This document shows, in pieces, positions 98 through 26,914 of a DNA stretch of 64,000 nucleotides. This DNA is from a virus. Under the pieces are notes generated by a model. That model saw only the letters and a list, made by a program, of their open reading frames with translations. It did not search any database and was not told where the DNA came from. The translations under genes and the position numbers were made by a program. Within the stretch, counting starts at the first letter, position 1; each line of letters starts with the position of its first letter. The DNA lies in the IMG/VR virus record IMGVR_UViG_3300046791_000095, positions 1-64,000 of that record; one strand, 5' to 3'.

Positions 98-204
98 GGG
101 GCGGCGACGAGGATAGGACCCGTGCCGTGACAGACGGATGAGCCGGTGACGACCGTGTGCGTGACTAAGCCCGGCCACTTGTTGGTGAGAATCCAACCCG
201 CCCC
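98..204 (+). ncRNA. Candidate tRNA-like structured leader RNA
   Basis: A perfect 7-bp end helix pairs GGGGCGG (98-104) with CCGCCCC (198-204). Stacked directly on its 3' strand is a hairpin of GTTGG and CCAAC with a 7-nt loop (181-197), which is the geometry of a tRNA acceptor plus T arm. Two smaller hairpins lie inside: CCGT/ACGG (125-137) and CGGT/ACCG (144-155). It is not a standard tRNA: it is 107 nt long, the loop lacks the TTCRA consensus and no clear anticodon arm is seen. It sits in the leader of the first small gene. Folding was by eye. Confidence 0.4.
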
Positions 205-218
205 CTACTTCTACAAAC

Positions 219-244
219 AACGAGGCGCTAGTGCGCGCCTACAA
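219..244 (+). promoter_or_regulatory. Conserved AGGCG leader hairpin, copy 1
   Basis: The element is AACG, a 6-bp stem AGGCGC/GCGCCT with a 6-nt loop, then ACAA, and it ends 29 nt before the ATG at 274. A 26-nt copy lies at 18138-18163 before the Sak4-like gene. The stem-closing pair is C-G here and T-A there, which preserves pairing, while the loops differ. That pattern suggests a conserved RNA hairpin acting in the 5' leader, for example in mRNA stability or translation. Confidence 0.6.
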
Positions 245-273
245 GGCCCGCGAGGGCTGGAGGTAGAAGGTAC

Positions 274-459
274 ATGAGTACCCTCGAAGTTCTCATCCGC
301 GAGAAGCAGAAGCAAGAGGGTGACACCGCAGTCAAGCAGGCCGTCGCTGAACTCAGACGCGCTGCTGGCAACTACGCCAACGCCAACCGTATCTCCCACT
401 CTCTCGCTGTCCGGGCGTGGGCCAACATGCTCTGCGACTTCCTCATCAGGGGGCTTTAG
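274..459 (+). CDS. Hypothetical small protein (61 aa)
   Basis: The start is supported by GGAGGT 14 nt upstream, after the structured leader. The protein is soluble, charged and mostly predicted helical, with a Glu/Lys-rich N-terminus and alternating Ala/Arg segments. I recognise no family. As the first gene after an elaborate leader it may be expressed early and strongly; this is inference only. Confidence 0.65.
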   Translation: MSTLEVLIREKQKQEGDTAVKQAVAELRRAAGNYANANRISHSLAVRAWANMLCDFLIRGL

Positions 460-7113: not shown

Positions 7114-7963
7114 TGGGCATCGGTACCTGCTGAACGCCGTCACGGCGATTCATGAGGATGTCCTTGTTGTCATCGGCGAGTCTGAGGCACGCGGAACGAT
7201 GAAGAACCCGTTGCCCTTCTCTGTCCGTGAAGCTATGGTCAGAGAAGCATACCCGAAGGTGAAAGTCGTGCAGTTGCGTGACTGCTCCTCAGACGAGAAG
7301 TGGTCGTACAATCTCGATACGCGAATTTGGGACGAACGAAGCGGATACGAACTTGGAAAAGGAGCGATGCTGTACGGTGGCCGTGACAGTTTCCTCAATC
7401 ATTACCAAGGAGAGTATCCGACGTTTGAACTTCCTCCGGTGCGGCCGATGTCAGGCACAGAAATTCGTGAGGCTGTTTGCCAGCGGGATAGTGAAGAGTT
7501 CCGTGCCGGAATGATCTTCGCAGCGAAGAATCGCTATCCCACATCGTACCAGACGGTGGACGTAGCCATCTTGAATCAAAGCGAGCAGATTCTCCTCGGA
7601 AGAAAGAAGGGTGATGGCGACGCGTGGAGATTCATTGGGGGCTTCGTTAGTCCCAAGGACCCCACGCTTGAATACACGGTGATGCGTGAAGTACGAGAAG
7701 AGACTGGTCTAGAGGTCGGGTCTCCCCGCTACATCGGTTCTTTCCAGGTGGAGGACTACCGATACCCTTCGGACGGTCCAGATAGAATCATGACTGCCCT
7801 CTTCACCGTCAAGTACGTATTCGGTTCACCCGAGCCGTCTGACGACATCGACGATTGTTGTTGGTTCTCGTTACATGATCTTCCTGACATCGTTCCACAA
7901 CATCATCCGCTGGTGCATCTACTCCTCGGCTATCGTGCCATGAAAGGACTACCCGATGCTTGA
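7055..7963 (+). CDS. Bifunctional NMN adenylyltransferase / Nudix hydrolase
   Basis: Residues 1-170 resemble the NadM-type nucleotidyltransferase: VVVRLQVPRLHDGHRYLL carries the HxGH signature and RPMSGTEIREAV the C-terminal ISxTxIR-type motif. Residues 170-302 are a Nudix domain with box GGFVSPKDPTLEYTVMREVR followed by EETGLEVG. NadM-Nudix fusions occur in some bacteria and large phages. The first domain makes NAD+ from NMN and ATP; the second hydrolyses ADP-ribose-like compounds. GTG start after GGGAGAACAGA, with a 59-nt overlap with the helicase gene. It precedes NAMPT, so the two form an NAD+ salvage pair. Confidence 0.85.
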   Translation: MKSEHLGVVVVRLQVPRLHDGHRYLLNAVTAIHEDVLVVIGESEARGTMKNPLPFSVREAMVREAYPKVKVVQLRDCSSDEKWSYNLDTRIWDERSGYELGKGAMLYGGRDSFLNHYQGEYPTFELPPVRPMSGTEIREAVCQRDSEEFRAGMIFAAKNRYPTSYQTVDVAILNQSEQILLGRKKGDGDAWRFIGGFVSPKDPTLEYTVMREVREETGLEVGSPRYIGSFQVEDYRYPSDGPDRIMTALFTVKYVFGSPEPSDDIDDCCWFSLHDLPDIVPQHHPLVHLLLGYRAMKGLPDA

Positions 7964-9332
7964 GAACAACATCATCCTCGCGACCGACAGCTACAAGGTC
8001 ACCCACTGGAAGCAGTATCCGAAGGGAACGCAGCGTGTGTTCTCCTTTCTCGAATCTCGGGGTGGCGAGTTCAAGACCACGACCTTCTTCGGTCTCTCCT
8101 ACATCATCAAGCGGTTCCTCGCTGGCAAGGTTGTCACTCACGAGAAGATCGCGGAGGCGCGCGAGTTCTTCAAGCTTCACTTCGGTGACGACACCCTCTT
8201 CAATCTGGACGACTGGAACTACATCCTCGCCATGCATGGTGGACAACTCCCGGTCTCCATCCGTGCCATCCCTGAAGGCACTACCGTTCCCACTGGTAAC
8301 GTCCTCATGACCATCGAGAACACGGACCCGAACGTGCCGTGGCTCACGAACTACCTAGAAACGATCCTCATGCAGGTGTGGTACCCGACGACCGTCTGCA
8401 CCCAGTCGCGTGCGATGAAGCAGGACATCAGTGAGGCAATGAGGTTGTCGGGCGCCGACATGGCTGGTCTCCCGTTCAAGCTCCACGACTTCGGCTACCG
8501 GGGCAGTACTTCGTTCGAGTCGGCCGGCATCGGCGGCTGCGCGCACCTCGTGAACTTCATGGGCACCGACACGATGGCTGCCTTGCAGGTCGCTCGAAAC
8601 TACTACAACGAGCCGATGGCTGGCTTCAGTATCCCCGCTGCCGAGCACAGTACGATGACGGCATGGGGAAAGACGAACGAGGCCGAGGCGTACCGGAACA
8701 TGCTGGAGCAGTTCCCGAAGGGCTTGGTTGCGGTCGTCAGCGATAGCTACGACATCTATCACGCGTGCAGTGAAATCTGGGGTGACGAGTTGAAGGATCA
8801 GGTCCTCAACCGTGACGGTGTCGTCATCATCCGCCCGGACAGTGGTGATCCTGTCAAGGTCATCCTGAGTCTGCTGAGCATCCTGGGTGACAAGTTCGGG
8901 GTCTCGACGACGAGTACGGGCGACAGAGTTCTGAATCCGAAGGTGCGCCTGATTCAGGGCGACGGGATCGACCGAGAGATGTTGACTCACATCCTCGATG
9001 CAATGCTCGATGAGAAGTGGTCCATCGACAACATCGCGTTCGGTTCTGGTGGTGGCCTACTCCAGAAGGTGAACCGCGATACCTGCAAGTTCGCTCTGAA
9101 GTGCAGTGCCATCGAAGTCAATGGCAAGTGGCTTGACGTGATGAAGGACCCGATCACGGACAGTGGGAAGCGGTCGAAGGCGGGCCGGCTGATCCTCGTC
9201 AAGGATAAGGGTGGATACCGGACTGTGCAGGAAGGGAGTAGTGGCTCGAACCTTCTCGAAGAGGTCTTCCGTAACGGTCAGCACATCCTTCCTCCGACGC
9301 TGTCGGGGATTCGGGAGCGAGCTTCGCGCTAA
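7956..9332 (+). CDS. nadV: Nicotinamide phosphoribosyltransferase (NAMPT)
   Basis: Full-length (458 residues) member of the NAMPT/NadV family, which makes NMN from nicotinamide and PRPP. Conserved blocks are DSYKVTHWKQYP (about 11-22), DFGYRGSTSFESAGIGG, the catalytic-His region IPAAEHSTMTAW, VSDSYDIYHA, the phosphate-binding RPDSGDP and FGSGGGLLQKVNRDT. The start overlaps the upstream NMN adenylyltransferase by 8 nt, so the two steps nicotinamide to NMN to NAD+ are translationally coupled. Confidence 0.93.
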   Translation: MLENNIILATDSYKVTHWKQYPKGTQRVFSFLESRGGEFKTTTFFGLSYIIKRFLAGKVVTHEKIAEAREFFKLHFGDDTLFNLDDWNYILAMHGGQLPVSIRAIPEGTTVPTGNVLMTIENTDPNVPWLTNYLETILMQVWYPTTVCTQSRAMKQDISEAMRLSGADMAGLPFKLHDFGYRGSTSFESAGIGGCAHLVNFMGTDTMAALQVARNYYNEPMAGFSIPAAEHSTMTAWGKTNEAEAYRNMLEQFPKGLVAVVSDSYDIYHACSEIWGDELKDQVLNRDGVVIIRPDSGDPVKVILSLLSILGDKFGVSTTSTGDRVLNPKVRLIQGDGIDREMLTHILDAMLDEKWSIDNIAFGSGGGLLQKVNRDTCKFALKCSAIEVNGKWLDVMKDPITDSGKRSKAGRLILVKDKGGYRTVQEGSSGSNLLEEVFRNGQHILPPTLSGIRERASR

Positions 9333-9869: not shown

Positions 9870-10097
9870 ATGAGCAACTCTCAGCAGTCGTACCAGAGCG
9901 GAGGCGTCGGGTTCACCGGCCTTCTCGCCGTTGCGTTCATCGTCCTGAAGCTCATCGGAGTCATTCACTGGTCGTGGTGGTGGGTCACTGCTCCCCTCTG
10001 GGGCGGTCTTGCGATCTTCATCGCGATCATGATCGTCCTGCTTCTCGTCTTGGGCATTGGCGAACTCATTGGTGGACATCAGCGTCCGCCTCGGTAA
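9870..10097 (+). CDS. Two-helix membrane protein (75 aa)
   Basis: Start MSNSQQS follows GGAGTAAAATC. Two hydrophobic segments (GFTGLLAVAFIVLKLIGVI; LAIFIAIMIVLLLVLGIG) flank the aromatic loop HWSWWWVTAPLW. This layout resembles the small phage membrane proteins annotated as transmembrane Fragile-X-F. Probably in the inner membrane, role unknown. It precedes rtcB by 13 nt. Confidence 0.65.
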   Translation: MSNSQQSYQSGGVGFTGLLAVAFIVLKLIGVIHWSWWWVTAPLWGGLAIFIAIMIVLLLVLGIGELIGGHQRPPR

Positions 10098-10110
10098 GAA
10101 AGGAAATTCT

Positions 10111-11400
10111 GTGAGCAACATTCGCTGGTTCACCGACATCAACGAGGTTGAGCCCGAAGCGCGTGCGCAGGTGGAACGGACGGCGAGCATGCCCTTCGTC
10201 AAAGGCGTAGCCGTCATGCCTGATGTTCACTTCGGCAGAGGCTCGACTGTGGGCACCGTTGTGGCTACGAAGGGTGCAGTCATGCCTGCCTGTGTGGGCG
10301 TGGACATCGGCTGTGGGATGATCGCGGTCCGGACGAATCTCAAGCCCGAGGCTGTGCGCCCGCATCTCGTGAAGATTCGTGAGGGCATCGAACGACGCAT
10401 CCCGCTCGGGATCGGCCAGCGGGGGATGAACTCGAAGATTCTCCCGACGGCCGAGTCACGCATTGCGATGCTCGAAGCTGAGGCTGCGCACGCGTGGGCC
10501 GATGTGAATCACATGAACGCCCGCGCGAAGGACTGGCGGAGTCAGTTGGGCTCCCTCGGTGGGGGTAATCACTTCATCGAGGTGTGCGTGGGACGCTCCT
10601 TCGACAACTACGACGCCGATAGTGTTGGATTTCCTTTTGGCCCGGAGGAGGTCTGGGTCATCCTTCACTCTGGCTCGCGCGGTGTTGGCAACAAGACGGG
10701 AACTCACTGGACCCAGGTTGCCAAGAAGCAGGCGGCCCGGTACAAGTACGACACGTACCTGCCTGATGCTGATCTCGCGTACCTTGTGCAGGAGAGCGAG
10801 GAGTACCATCAGTACATGAAGGAGTTGTACTGGTGTCAGTCCTTCGCGCAACTCAACCGTGACGAGATGATGGATCGGGTTATCAATGAACTGTCTTACA
10901 CACTGTGCGGTGGATACGGAACTCCTGCTCTTCCGTTTGACATCGATCTGCGGAAGGACATGGAGTCTGACAGGCTCATTGAAGTCGAGCGCATCAACTG
11001 TCATCATAACTACGTCAGCAAGGAGCATCATGATGGCGACAACGTCCTCATCACCCGGAAGGGCGCAATACTGGCGTCTGATGGAACGCGCGGGCTCATT
11101 CCCGGTTCGATGGGGGCGAGCAGTTTCATCGTTACGGGCCTTGGGCATTCCGGAGCGTACTGTAGCGCACCTCATGGGGCTGGCCGCAGAATGTCTCGAA
11201 CGGCAGCACGAAAGCAGTTCACTCTCGAAGGAGTCACGCAAGAGATGGCGTCGCTCGGCATTGAAGCCCGAGTCCGCGAAGCAATCGTTGACGAAGCTCC
11301 GGGCGCGTACAAGAACATCGACATCGTGATGTTCGATGCGCGGGAGCTTGTGCGTCCGACGCACGTCCTGAATCAACTCATCAGCGTGAAGGGAGACTGA
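10111..11400 (+). CDS. rtcB: RtcB-type RNA ligase
   Basis: Family hallmarks of the GTP- and Mn-dependent 3'-phosphate/5'-OH RNA ligase: MPDVHFGRGSTVG, ACVGVDIGCGM (metal-binding Cys and Asp), LGSLGGGNHFIE, LHSGSRGVG, HHNYVSKEHH, and SAPHGAGRRMSR with the guanylylated-His region. GTG start after AAGGAAATTCT; 429 residues, near the bacterial length. It joins ends left by metal-independent ribonucleases, including many anticodon nucleases and toxins. It lies close to a second RNA ligase and shares an operon direction with cca. Confidence 0.93.
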   Translation: MSNIRWFTDINEVEPEARAQVERTASMPFVKGVAVMPDVHFGRGSTVGTVVATKGAVMPACVGVDIGCGMIAVRTNLKPEAVRPHLVKIREGIERRIPLGIGQRGMNSKILPTAESRIAMLEAEAAHAWADVNHMNARAKDWRSQLGSLGGGNHFIEVCVGRSFDNYDADSVGFPFGPEEVWVILHSGSRGVGNKTGTHWTQVAKKQAARYKYDTYLPDADLAYLVQESEEYHQYMKELYWCQSFAQLNRDEMMDRVINELSYTLCGGYGTPALPFDIDLRKDMESDRLIEVERINCHHNYVSKEHHDGDNVLITRKGAILASDGTRGLIPGSMGASSFIVTGLGHSGAYCSAPHGAGRRMSRTAARKQFTLEGVTQEMASLGIEARVREAIVDEAPGAYKNIDIVMFDARELVRPTHVLNQLISVKGD

Positions 11401-18057: not shown

Positions 18058-18138
18058 TGTGCGGGCAGTAGTGTAAATGCTCGCGCATTCAGACTACGGA
18101 GTCTGAGGTGGTAGGGTGGCGACTACCCTGCCCGCGCA
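18058..18138 (+). ncRNA. Four-way-junction (cloverleaf) leader RNA
   Basis: An 11-bp end helix pairs TGTGCGGGCAG (18058-18068) with CTGCCCGCGCA (18128-18138), with one G-U pair. It encloses three perfect hairpins: AATGC/GCATT with a TCGC loop, CAGACT/AGTCTG with an ACGG loop directly adjacent, and GGTAG/CTACC with an 8-nt loop stacked directly on the end helix. There is no 7-nt anticodon loop and no T-loop consensus, so it is not a tRNA. It lies in the leader of the Sak4-like gene. Paired by eye. Confidence 0.7.
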
Positions 18139-18163: not shown

Positions 18164-18179
18164 CCTAGCAGGAGGTACT

Positions 18180-19070
18180 GTGGCGAAGAAGGAAAGTGAG
18201 AACATCCTCAACTTCTTTCACGGCTCGGACATCAACGAGACGGCGAAGGAGAGGATTCTGATCTACGGCCGAGCGGGCGTCGGTAAGACGCGCTTCGGTC
18301 TGTCGATCCCTGAGCACTGGGGTCGCATCGCGTACTACGCGGCTGACAAGAACTCGTGGCTCCTGAGTTCGATCAGTCAGAAGAAGCGGGATCGCATCGA
18401 GGTTGTGCGCCCCGAGGGACCTGATCCTACGTCGCAGTTCATGCAGTTCTGCATGATGGACCTGGATGAGCTTGGTCCCGACATTGGTGTCATCGTCGTG
18501 GACACGTACACGAAGGTCGCGATGGACGGTGTCTCGTACACTGCGAACTCTCTGTCGGTGGACCGCGAGAAGCACTACATCATCGGGGAACTCGGCAAGG
18601 GGGGCATCGCGATTCCGAACCGTGGCGACTATCAGGGTATCGATGGTCTCTCGAAGAGCTACCTCGATACGCTGTTCGACTCGCATCCCGACAAGCACAT
18701 CATCTTCATCATGCACGAAGAGAGCAAGATGGTCGGTGGTGCCAATGGGACGATGATCGGTGGTCCGCAGCATCCGGGCTGGACGATGATCGACTACCTG
18801 CCGGCACAGTTCAGCACCATTGTTCGTCTCATCCGTGACGAGGTCCTCGTTCCGGGAGCGGACGATGTTACGCCGGTCGTGGTCGCAATCACGGAGTACG
18901 ACGGTAAGTTCCCGGCGAAGCTCCGCACCTGCGATGAAGAAGCTCCGAATCCGCTGGCCCGTCGTGAACTGGCTCGTAACCCATCGTCTTGGTGGGAAGA
19001 CTACGAGGCGTACATGACCGATCTATCCACGCCAGTCGTCAAGAAGAAGAAACCGAAGAAGACTGCATAG
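18180..19070 (+). CDS. Sak4-like RecA-fold ATPase (AAA_24 type)
   Basis: Walker A is IYGRAGVGKTRFG (about residues 29-41) and Walker B is IGVIVVDTYTKV (about 105-116). 296 residues with a lysine-rich C-terminus (KKKKPKK). This P-loop type includes the Sak4 single-strand annealing ATPases of phages, and the next gene looks like the ssDNA-binding partner such proteins need. GTG start with AGGAGG seven bases upstream. The elaborate leader suggests strong or regulated expression. Confidence 0.75.
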   Translation: MAKKESENILNFFHGSDINETAKERILIYGRAGVGKTRFGLSIPEHWGRIAYYAADKNSWLLSSISQKKRDRIEVVRPEGPDPTSQFMQFCMMDLDELGPDIGVIVVDTYTKVAMDGVSYTANSLSVDREKHYIIGELGKGGIAIPNRGDYQGIDGLSKSYLDTLFDSHPDKHIIFIMHEESKMVGGANGTMIGGPQHPGWTMIDYLPAQFSTIVRLIRDEVLVPGADDVTPVVVAITEYDGKFPAKLRTCDEEAPNPLARRELARNPSSWWEDYEAYMTDLSTPVVKKKKPKKTA

Positions 19071-26269: not shown

Positions 26270-26512
26270 ATGTCCTACGTCTGGATCAAACTCGTGACGG
26301 CGTGTGGCTGTTCAAAGGAGTGGTTGAGTCCAGAGAACTGGACCAGATCAAAGTACGTTGTTTCACTCCCGACACCTGTCAAAATAAGTGGAGGAGAACC
26401 TGATCTAGCGAACACCTTTCCTCGGACTCGTACTTTCAAATTGTACAACGAGTACTGGGATAATGTTCGGAAGATTCGTGTTGTCGTCTATGAAGAGTCT
26501 TTAGGGGAGTAG
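26270..26512 (+). CDS. Hypothetical protein overlapping tRNA-Pro (80 aa)
   Basis: A small protein with CGCSKEWLSP near the N-terminus and a beta-rich C-terminus (KIRVVVYEESLGE). Its last 10 bases form the acceptor strand of the following tRNA, so processing of the tRNA would cut the end of this coding sequence. No family recognised. Confidence 0.55.
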   Translation: MSYVWIKLVTACGCSKEWLSPENWTRSKYVVSLPTPVKISGGEPDLANTFPRTRTFKLYNEYWDNVRKIRVVVYEESLGE

Positions 26513-26578
26513 CGCAGAGGCCAGCGTGCCCGTTTTGGAAACGGGCGGTCGTGGGTTCGAATCCCACCTCCCCTGCCA
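26503..26578 (+). tRNA. tRNA-Pro (UGG)
   Basis: Acceptor AGGGGAG pairs with CTCCCCT, D arm GCGC/GCGT, anticodon arm CCCGT-TTTGGAA-ACGGG with anticodon TGG, and T arm GTGGG-TTCGAAT-CCCAC. The 3' CCA is encoded (26576-26578). 76 nt, all canonical. The 5' end overlaps the upstream coding sequence. Confidence 0.95.
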
Positions 26579-26831: not shown

Positions 26832-26914
26832 AGCTCCCTGATGGAATGCAGACATGCCAGCCTTAGAAGCTGGTGCCTTCGGGCGTGAGGGTTCGAATCC
26901 CTCGGGAGCTACCA
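26832..26914 (+). tRNA. tRNA-Leu (UAG)
   Basis: Acceptor AGCTCCC/GGGAGCT, anticodon arm CCAGC-CTTAGAA-GCTGG with anticodon TAG, a long variable arm around GCCTTCGGGC as expected for a class II leucine tRNA, T arm GAGGG-TTCGAAT-CCCTC, discriminator A and encoded CCA. 83 nt. Confidence 0.93.

Follow-up and report, generated by a model that had tools for sequence, protein, structure and literature searches.

A tRNA-like element and an invariant hairpin in phage genomes point to a possible new class of phage noncoding RNA

Why is one short hairpin kept at two distant places in the genome of a phage? The window, by which we mean the whole 64,000-nucleotide stretch of DNA that was analysed, begins at base 1 of an IMG/VR virus record of 64,672 bases. 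Its genes for RtcB and a Sak4-like protein stand alongside those for a terminase, an SU10-type portal and a family A DNA polymerase, a content that marks it as a tailed phage. A sequence-only reading had described two copies of the pattern AACG-AGGCGY-N6-RCGCCT-ACAA with loops that differ, flanks that match and C-G in one copy, T-A in the other, as the closing pair, and both are present in exactly that form:

219 to 244, plus strand: invariant hairpin P3, copy 1, AACG-AGGCGC-TAGTGC-GCGCCT-ACAA
18138 to 18163, plus strand: invariant hairpin P3, copy 2, AACG-AGGCGT-CGGTAC-ACGCCT-ACAA

The covariance model R1 matches copy 1 with 36 bits (E 5e-6) and copy 2 with 32.5 bits (E 4.5e-5). The window holds no third copy, even at three or fewer mismatches, with 0.01 matches expected by chance, and the whole record contains the same two copies and none further.

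The larger structured RNA that had been proposed on the 5' side of each copy is real, and takes the form of a tRNA-like element (TLS):

98 to 205, plus strand: TLS of copy 1, acceptor GGGGCGG (98-104) and CCGCCCC (198-204), discriminator at 205
107 to 123 and 181 to 197, plus strand: arms of the copy 1 TLS from our own TLS finder, D-like arm and T arm GTTGG(TGAGAAT)CCAAC, respectively
18060 to 18136, plus strand: TLS of copy 2, acceptor TGCGGGC (18060-18066) and GCCCGCG (18130-18136)
18090 to 18105 and 18113 to 18129, plus strand: arms of the copy 2 TLS, anticodon arm CAGAC-TACGGA-GTCTG with a 6-nt loop and T arm AGGGT(GGCGACT)ACCCT, respectively

In copy 1, about 35 extra nucleotides stand where the normal anticodon arm would be. 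The unconstrained minimum free energy (MFE) fold of 98-206 reproduces the acceptor, D and T arms, with a z-score of -1.05, at which stability alone is not significant. The constrained TLS fold of copy 2 reaches -52.6 kcal/mol compared with -55.3 kcal/mol for the MFE, and its assignment, made by analogy, is less secure than that of copy 1. Among approximately 115 motif loci, the finder places a T arm and an acceptor in register at approximately 58, mostly above shuffled upstream sequence; about half of the loci, some of them coding chance matches, have no TLS in the finder. The hairpin lies directly 3' of a TLS in about half of the true copies, with 1-37 nt between TLS and junction. ARAGORN with introns allowed and the Rfam tRNA model both report upstream tRNAs with an insertion of tens of nucleotides in the anticodon loop. 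These elements have what defines a tRNA-like fold, namely a 7-bp acceptor, a D arm and a T arm with a 7-nt loop in register, and the anticodon arm gives way to a tetraloop (GCAA, GUUA or GUGA), a 6-nt loop or a long insertion. The 7-nt anticodon loop with U33 of a functional tRNA is missing from nearly all TLS inspected, the exception being a normal tRNA-Ile(GAU) in the TLS position at one locus (L011).

In most true copies the hairpin forms the middle arm (P3) of a junction of three or four helices with the consensus P1-(GUA-P2)-[GAAC]AACG-P3-ACAA-P4-GAG-P1'. The MFE fold of 206-276 is the three-way junction, whose stability is unusual (z -2.79, with 1 of 200 shuffles equally good). Copy 2 is without P1, a single C (18137) separating the acceptor from the 26-mer, and two relatives of the phage (L116 and L117) have a P1, CCTTCAC/GTGAAGG, at the position where copy 2 has none. 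A Shine-Dalgarno sequence and a gene follow both copies, as had also been noted:

208 to 269, plus strand: three-way junction of copy 1, P1 CTTCTAC (208-214) and GTAGAAG (263-269) around the hairpin and P4
245 to 258, plus strand: P4 hairpin of copy 1, GGCCC-GCGA-GGGCT
259 to 264, plus strand: Shine-Dalgarno sequence GGAGGT of copy 1, made up of the conserved GAG-type strand of the junction together with the beginning of P1'
274 to 459, plus strand: 61-aa open reading frame after copy 1, start ATG 274, matching no known family
18164 to 18176, plus strand: P4 of copy 2, CCT-AGC-AGG, overlapping the Shine-Dalgarno sequence AGGAGGT (18170-18176)
18180 to 19070, plus strand: Sak4-like ssDNA-annealing/AAA ATPase gene after copy 2, start GTG 18180 (phrog_124, 2.9e-17; PF13479)

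The window also carries two ordinary tRNA genes distant from both copies (Pro-TGG and Leu-TAG, 26503-26578 and 26832-26914), a nicotinamide phosphoribosyltransferase gene (7956-9332) and an RtcB RNA ligase gene (10168-11394, or 10057-11400 as the wider range), the last also found in relatives of the phage. A general link between RtcB and the RNA was rejected: RtcB occurs in 8 of 45 motif records and 2 of 40 control records, and three of the eight positive records are close kin of the window phage.

The pattern AACGAGGCG-N8-CGCCTACAA occurs in 113 stretches of viral contigs. Frequent chance matches and absence from close relatives, the two grounds for doubt named beforehand, were not what was seen: a control with permuted stem and identical flanks is found in only two stretches, and relatives retain the element. 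Coding chance matches account for some of the 113, as they do for many of the 26-mer matches in genome contigs (..NEA....AYN..); most of the 113 are intergenic and have further structure in common. The closing pair at 111 non-redundant loci is T-A in 91, C-G in seven, A-G in 11 and C-A in two. It is the only pair of P3 that varies, the other five being constant, and since its variants include the non-pairing A.G, the lone compensatory change that the sequence-only reading had cited in support of selection on RNA structure is weak evidence. When only GAACAACGA and TACAA were fixed and the stem was left free, the structured matches again all had AGGCG/CGCCT, which shows that the stem is kept as sequence, and covariation in P3 was rejected on this ground. 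The hairpin AACGAGGCG/CGCCUACAA does not vary among phages whose hosts are unrelated, nor in the few Patescibacteria that carry it. Pairing between loops in cis was rejected as well (own 5-mers 0.24, cross 0.21, no excess), and complementarity to E. coli rRNA, limited to a few 8-10-mers, was unconvincing.

Selection on RNA structure is itself supported, and much more strongly, by other evidence, the real covariation being located in P1, P2, P4 and the acceptor, outside the 26-nt motif. In an alignment of 18 sequences, 93% of the cells pair compared with 74% after shuffling, double-sided changes number 56 versus 15.6, and the covariation score is 0.487 versus 0.140, falling below 0.1 when the alignment is slid. 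Double-sided changes affect seven of the eight pairs of P1 and three of the four pairs of P2; P1 strands pair at 6.43 of 7 positions within a sequence and at 4.37 of 7 between sequences, and P2 and P4 likewise pair better within than between sequences. Because the members of the alignment were selected by the motif, this test covers the flanking helices and excludes P3.

The genomic setting qualifies the proposal that the hairpin is a leader element. It holds for the window phage and its relatives: in L116 and L117 the element precedes the same Sak4 gene, relatives also keep it at other places, with acceptors that differ yet pair, and the Shine-Dalgarno sequence overlaps the structure in both window copies, in these two relatives and in a third (L060). 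It does not hold in general. Elsewhere, copies are found within tRNA arrays, as stand-alone transcription units or right after a late promoter; one copy (L026) has its own promoter-like sequence. In a further contig (L020, 3342-3412) a RAGATH-1 hammerhead ribozyme lies about 1 kb from a motif copy. A single copy of the four-way junction is present in each of eight or nine Patescibacterial genomes, and most of these copies have no TLS and are flanked by promoter-like and terminator-like sequences. An RNA universal to Patescibacteria was rejected, as single copies occur in 3 of the 286 genomes that represent the phylum and, within one family, in 4 of 39, and the phylum-wide count argues against a universal function in that phylum.

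A second form of the hairpin, GUAAAACGAGGCGUCG..ACACGCCUAUC, was found in 50 viral stretches, from lambdoid phages (e.g. CUS-3), Acinetobacter phage SR, Aeromonas, Hafnia and many prophages. Here the hairpin lies inside the tRNA-like ring: in 16 of 21 representatives a T arm precedes, by no more than 2 nt, a perfectly pairing 7-nt acceptor strand, whose partner segment is usually 140-200 nt upstream, and the T loop of several is the canonical TTCGAAT. The lambdoid form sits in the late leader, from tR' to holin S. In HK75 the region is closely flanked by an annotated late promoter and terminator on its 5' side and by the holin on its 3' side. HK75 (L338) and lambda have the outer helix in common, and both are without the hairpin. 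The lambda helix (L340, J02459 44500-45250), between tR' and holin S, is of 9 bp, GTTGTGCTG/CAGCACAAC, and a T arm, GCCGGTTCGATTCCGGC, is seen in the tR'-holin S region of HK75. A BLAST search with a query spanning this leader hit 957 of 5426 E. coli genomes and 191 phage records, most of the matches covering short parts. The Pseudomonas phages D6 and Psa21 have the second-form hairpin within the first-form architecture, a hybrid that links the two forms; in D6 it adjoins a tRNA-like element annotated as 'tRNA-OTHER'. As a separate observation, E. coli phage Jgk1 (L333, 975-1250) has an unannotated apparent tmRNA beside its second-form RNA, with the frame GCA AAC GAT GAT GTT GTT CTG ATG GCT GCT TAA, which gives the tag ANDDVVLMAA.

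The explanation that we prefer, and hold to be somewhat likelier true than false, is that the element is a noncoding RNA, probably matured via its tRNA-like part, and that the invariant hairpin makes contact with a host component that is widely conserved. Such an RNA would have a noncoding role, without decoding as a tRNA does. Host tRNA-processing enzymes, with RNase P at the 5' side, would cut the tRNA-like part, a step through which the RNA may gain defined ends and become stable. Its working surface would be the invariant hairpin, touching a component common to most bacteria, for which translation, tRNA processing and RNA polymerase are candidate classes. A shared host target is suggested because no partner gene travels with the RNA (no protein is common to the neighbourhoods outside one marine phage group), yet the hairpin is constant in phages of very different bacteria. 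It is the invariance of the sequence that would speak for a universal host partner, and horizontal spread of one element could add to that invariance. In the window phage, where the GAG strand and P1' supply the Shine-Dalgarno sequence of copy 1 and P4 overlaps that of copy 2, translation may plausibly be affected in cis as well: folded P1/P4 would hold down initiation until opening or binding of the structure relieved it.

An unlikely alternative assigns the element to its own transcript, as a cis-acting determinant of mRNA processing or stability: RNase P and RNase Z would excise the tRNA-like part from a long phage transcript and leave the hairpin and junction as a protective 5' mRNA end, with the ribosome site in P1' or P4. 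The window copies and their relatives, which directly precede a gene and have the Shine-Dalgarno sequence in the structure, agree with it, as does the position of the lambdoid form between tR' and holin S, but it leaves unexplained why the stem sequence is constant across phyla, why stand-alone units exist, why some copies are followed by promoter-like sequence and why the hairpin can lie inside the TLS.

The prospect that the element binds RNA polymerase for antitermination, in the manner of nut or put sites, is slight. The UGCUCUUU-like linker would then be a boxA for NusB-S10 and the hairpin a boxB; the linker UGCUCUUU of the marine group resembles boxA, RNA polymerase would supply a universal partner, and operon starts host some copies, but the linker forms one side of a covarying helix, other phages vary freely in its sequence, and terminator-like sequences follow the Patescibacterial copies. 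Quite improbable, too, is a self-cleaving ribozyme that generates the 3' terminus of the tRNA-like RNA beside it. Theta (HDV-like) ribozymes do occupy the equivalent place, directly 3' of phage tRNAs, with 77% of the tRNA-associated ones no more than 1 nt away (PMC10879173), the element starts about 1 nt from the discriminator in many phages, and its conserved junction letters look like a catalytic core. The topology is against it: in the theta or HDV-like fold P1 is closed before P4, whereas here the order is P1-P2-P3-P4-P1', with P1' last, so that P1 encloses the other helices and an HDV-like nested double pseudoknot is missing; nor does any Rfam ribozyme match at the motif, and the Patescibacterial copies have no upstream RNA to release. 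A DNA-level operator or a chance hairpin is strongly disfavoured and barely credible, for while a dimer could bind an inverted repeat whose halves are 6 nt apart, the conserved flanks AACG and ACAA are not palindromic, the flanking helices covary as RNA, the orientation is fixed relative to the tRNA-like elements, and chance is excluded by the 0.01 matches expected in the window and the control count of 2 versus 113.

If the preferred reading of a noncoding RNA with a host-directed hairpin is true, an RNA family outside Rfam is present in well-studied lambdoid phages, in the tRNA arrays of jumbo phages and in marine phages, with about 19 hairpin letters unchanged across such distant viruses, which points to a conserved host target. 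It would also provide the stable tRNA-like phage RNAs, known since T4 RNA C, with a molecular part open to test, and would account for some of the odd tRNA calls made in phage genomes, whether labelled 'tRNA-OTHER' or intron-bearing.

With respect to known systems, the family is apparently undescribed. Rfam 15, applied to the window and about 35 loci, gave no family above its curated threshold at the motif, and only tRNA models match, on the adjacent tRNA-like part; a BLAST search of both window leaders against named phages gave no match. In the literature on tRNA-like phage RNAs and on the hairpin sequence only theta ribozymes were relevant, which is weak evidence, as subscription papers were thinly covered. 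The bacterial Y RNA YrlA is a noncoding RNA that carries a tRNA-like module; its Rfam model has no match at the motif and only weak sub-threshold matches elsewhere. Theta ribozymes, with their nested double pseudoknot, catalytic C and occurrence mostly in gut phages, differ from the phage RNA with its enclosing P1, multi-branch junction and invariant hairpin. The second form in lambdoid phages resembles tmRNA in its tRNA-like acceptor and T arm and in the large insertion between D and T, but no tag reading frame was found in the copies inspected, very short insert frames being incompletely covered, and ARAGORN found no tmRNA in the window or the 18 loci submitted. T4 stable RNA C (species 1 RNA; rnaC, L207 1409-1547) is a small stable phage RNA among the T4 tRNA genes and has the general plan of the elements described here, with a canonical T arm (GGGTTCGAATCCC) and a large central insertion replacing the normal anticodon arm; it differs in being without the ACGAGGCG hairpin and has no sequence in common with them. 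The element belongs with such tRNA-like phage RNAs, as a variant, and there is a fair chance that it deserves a class of its own. Whether that class combines a tRNA disguise with an invariant hairpin engaging a host machine common to most bacteria, in phages of Proteobacteria, Actinobacteria and marine hosts, in a few Patescibacteria and, unannotated between Q and S, in lambdoid phages, we regard as an even call.
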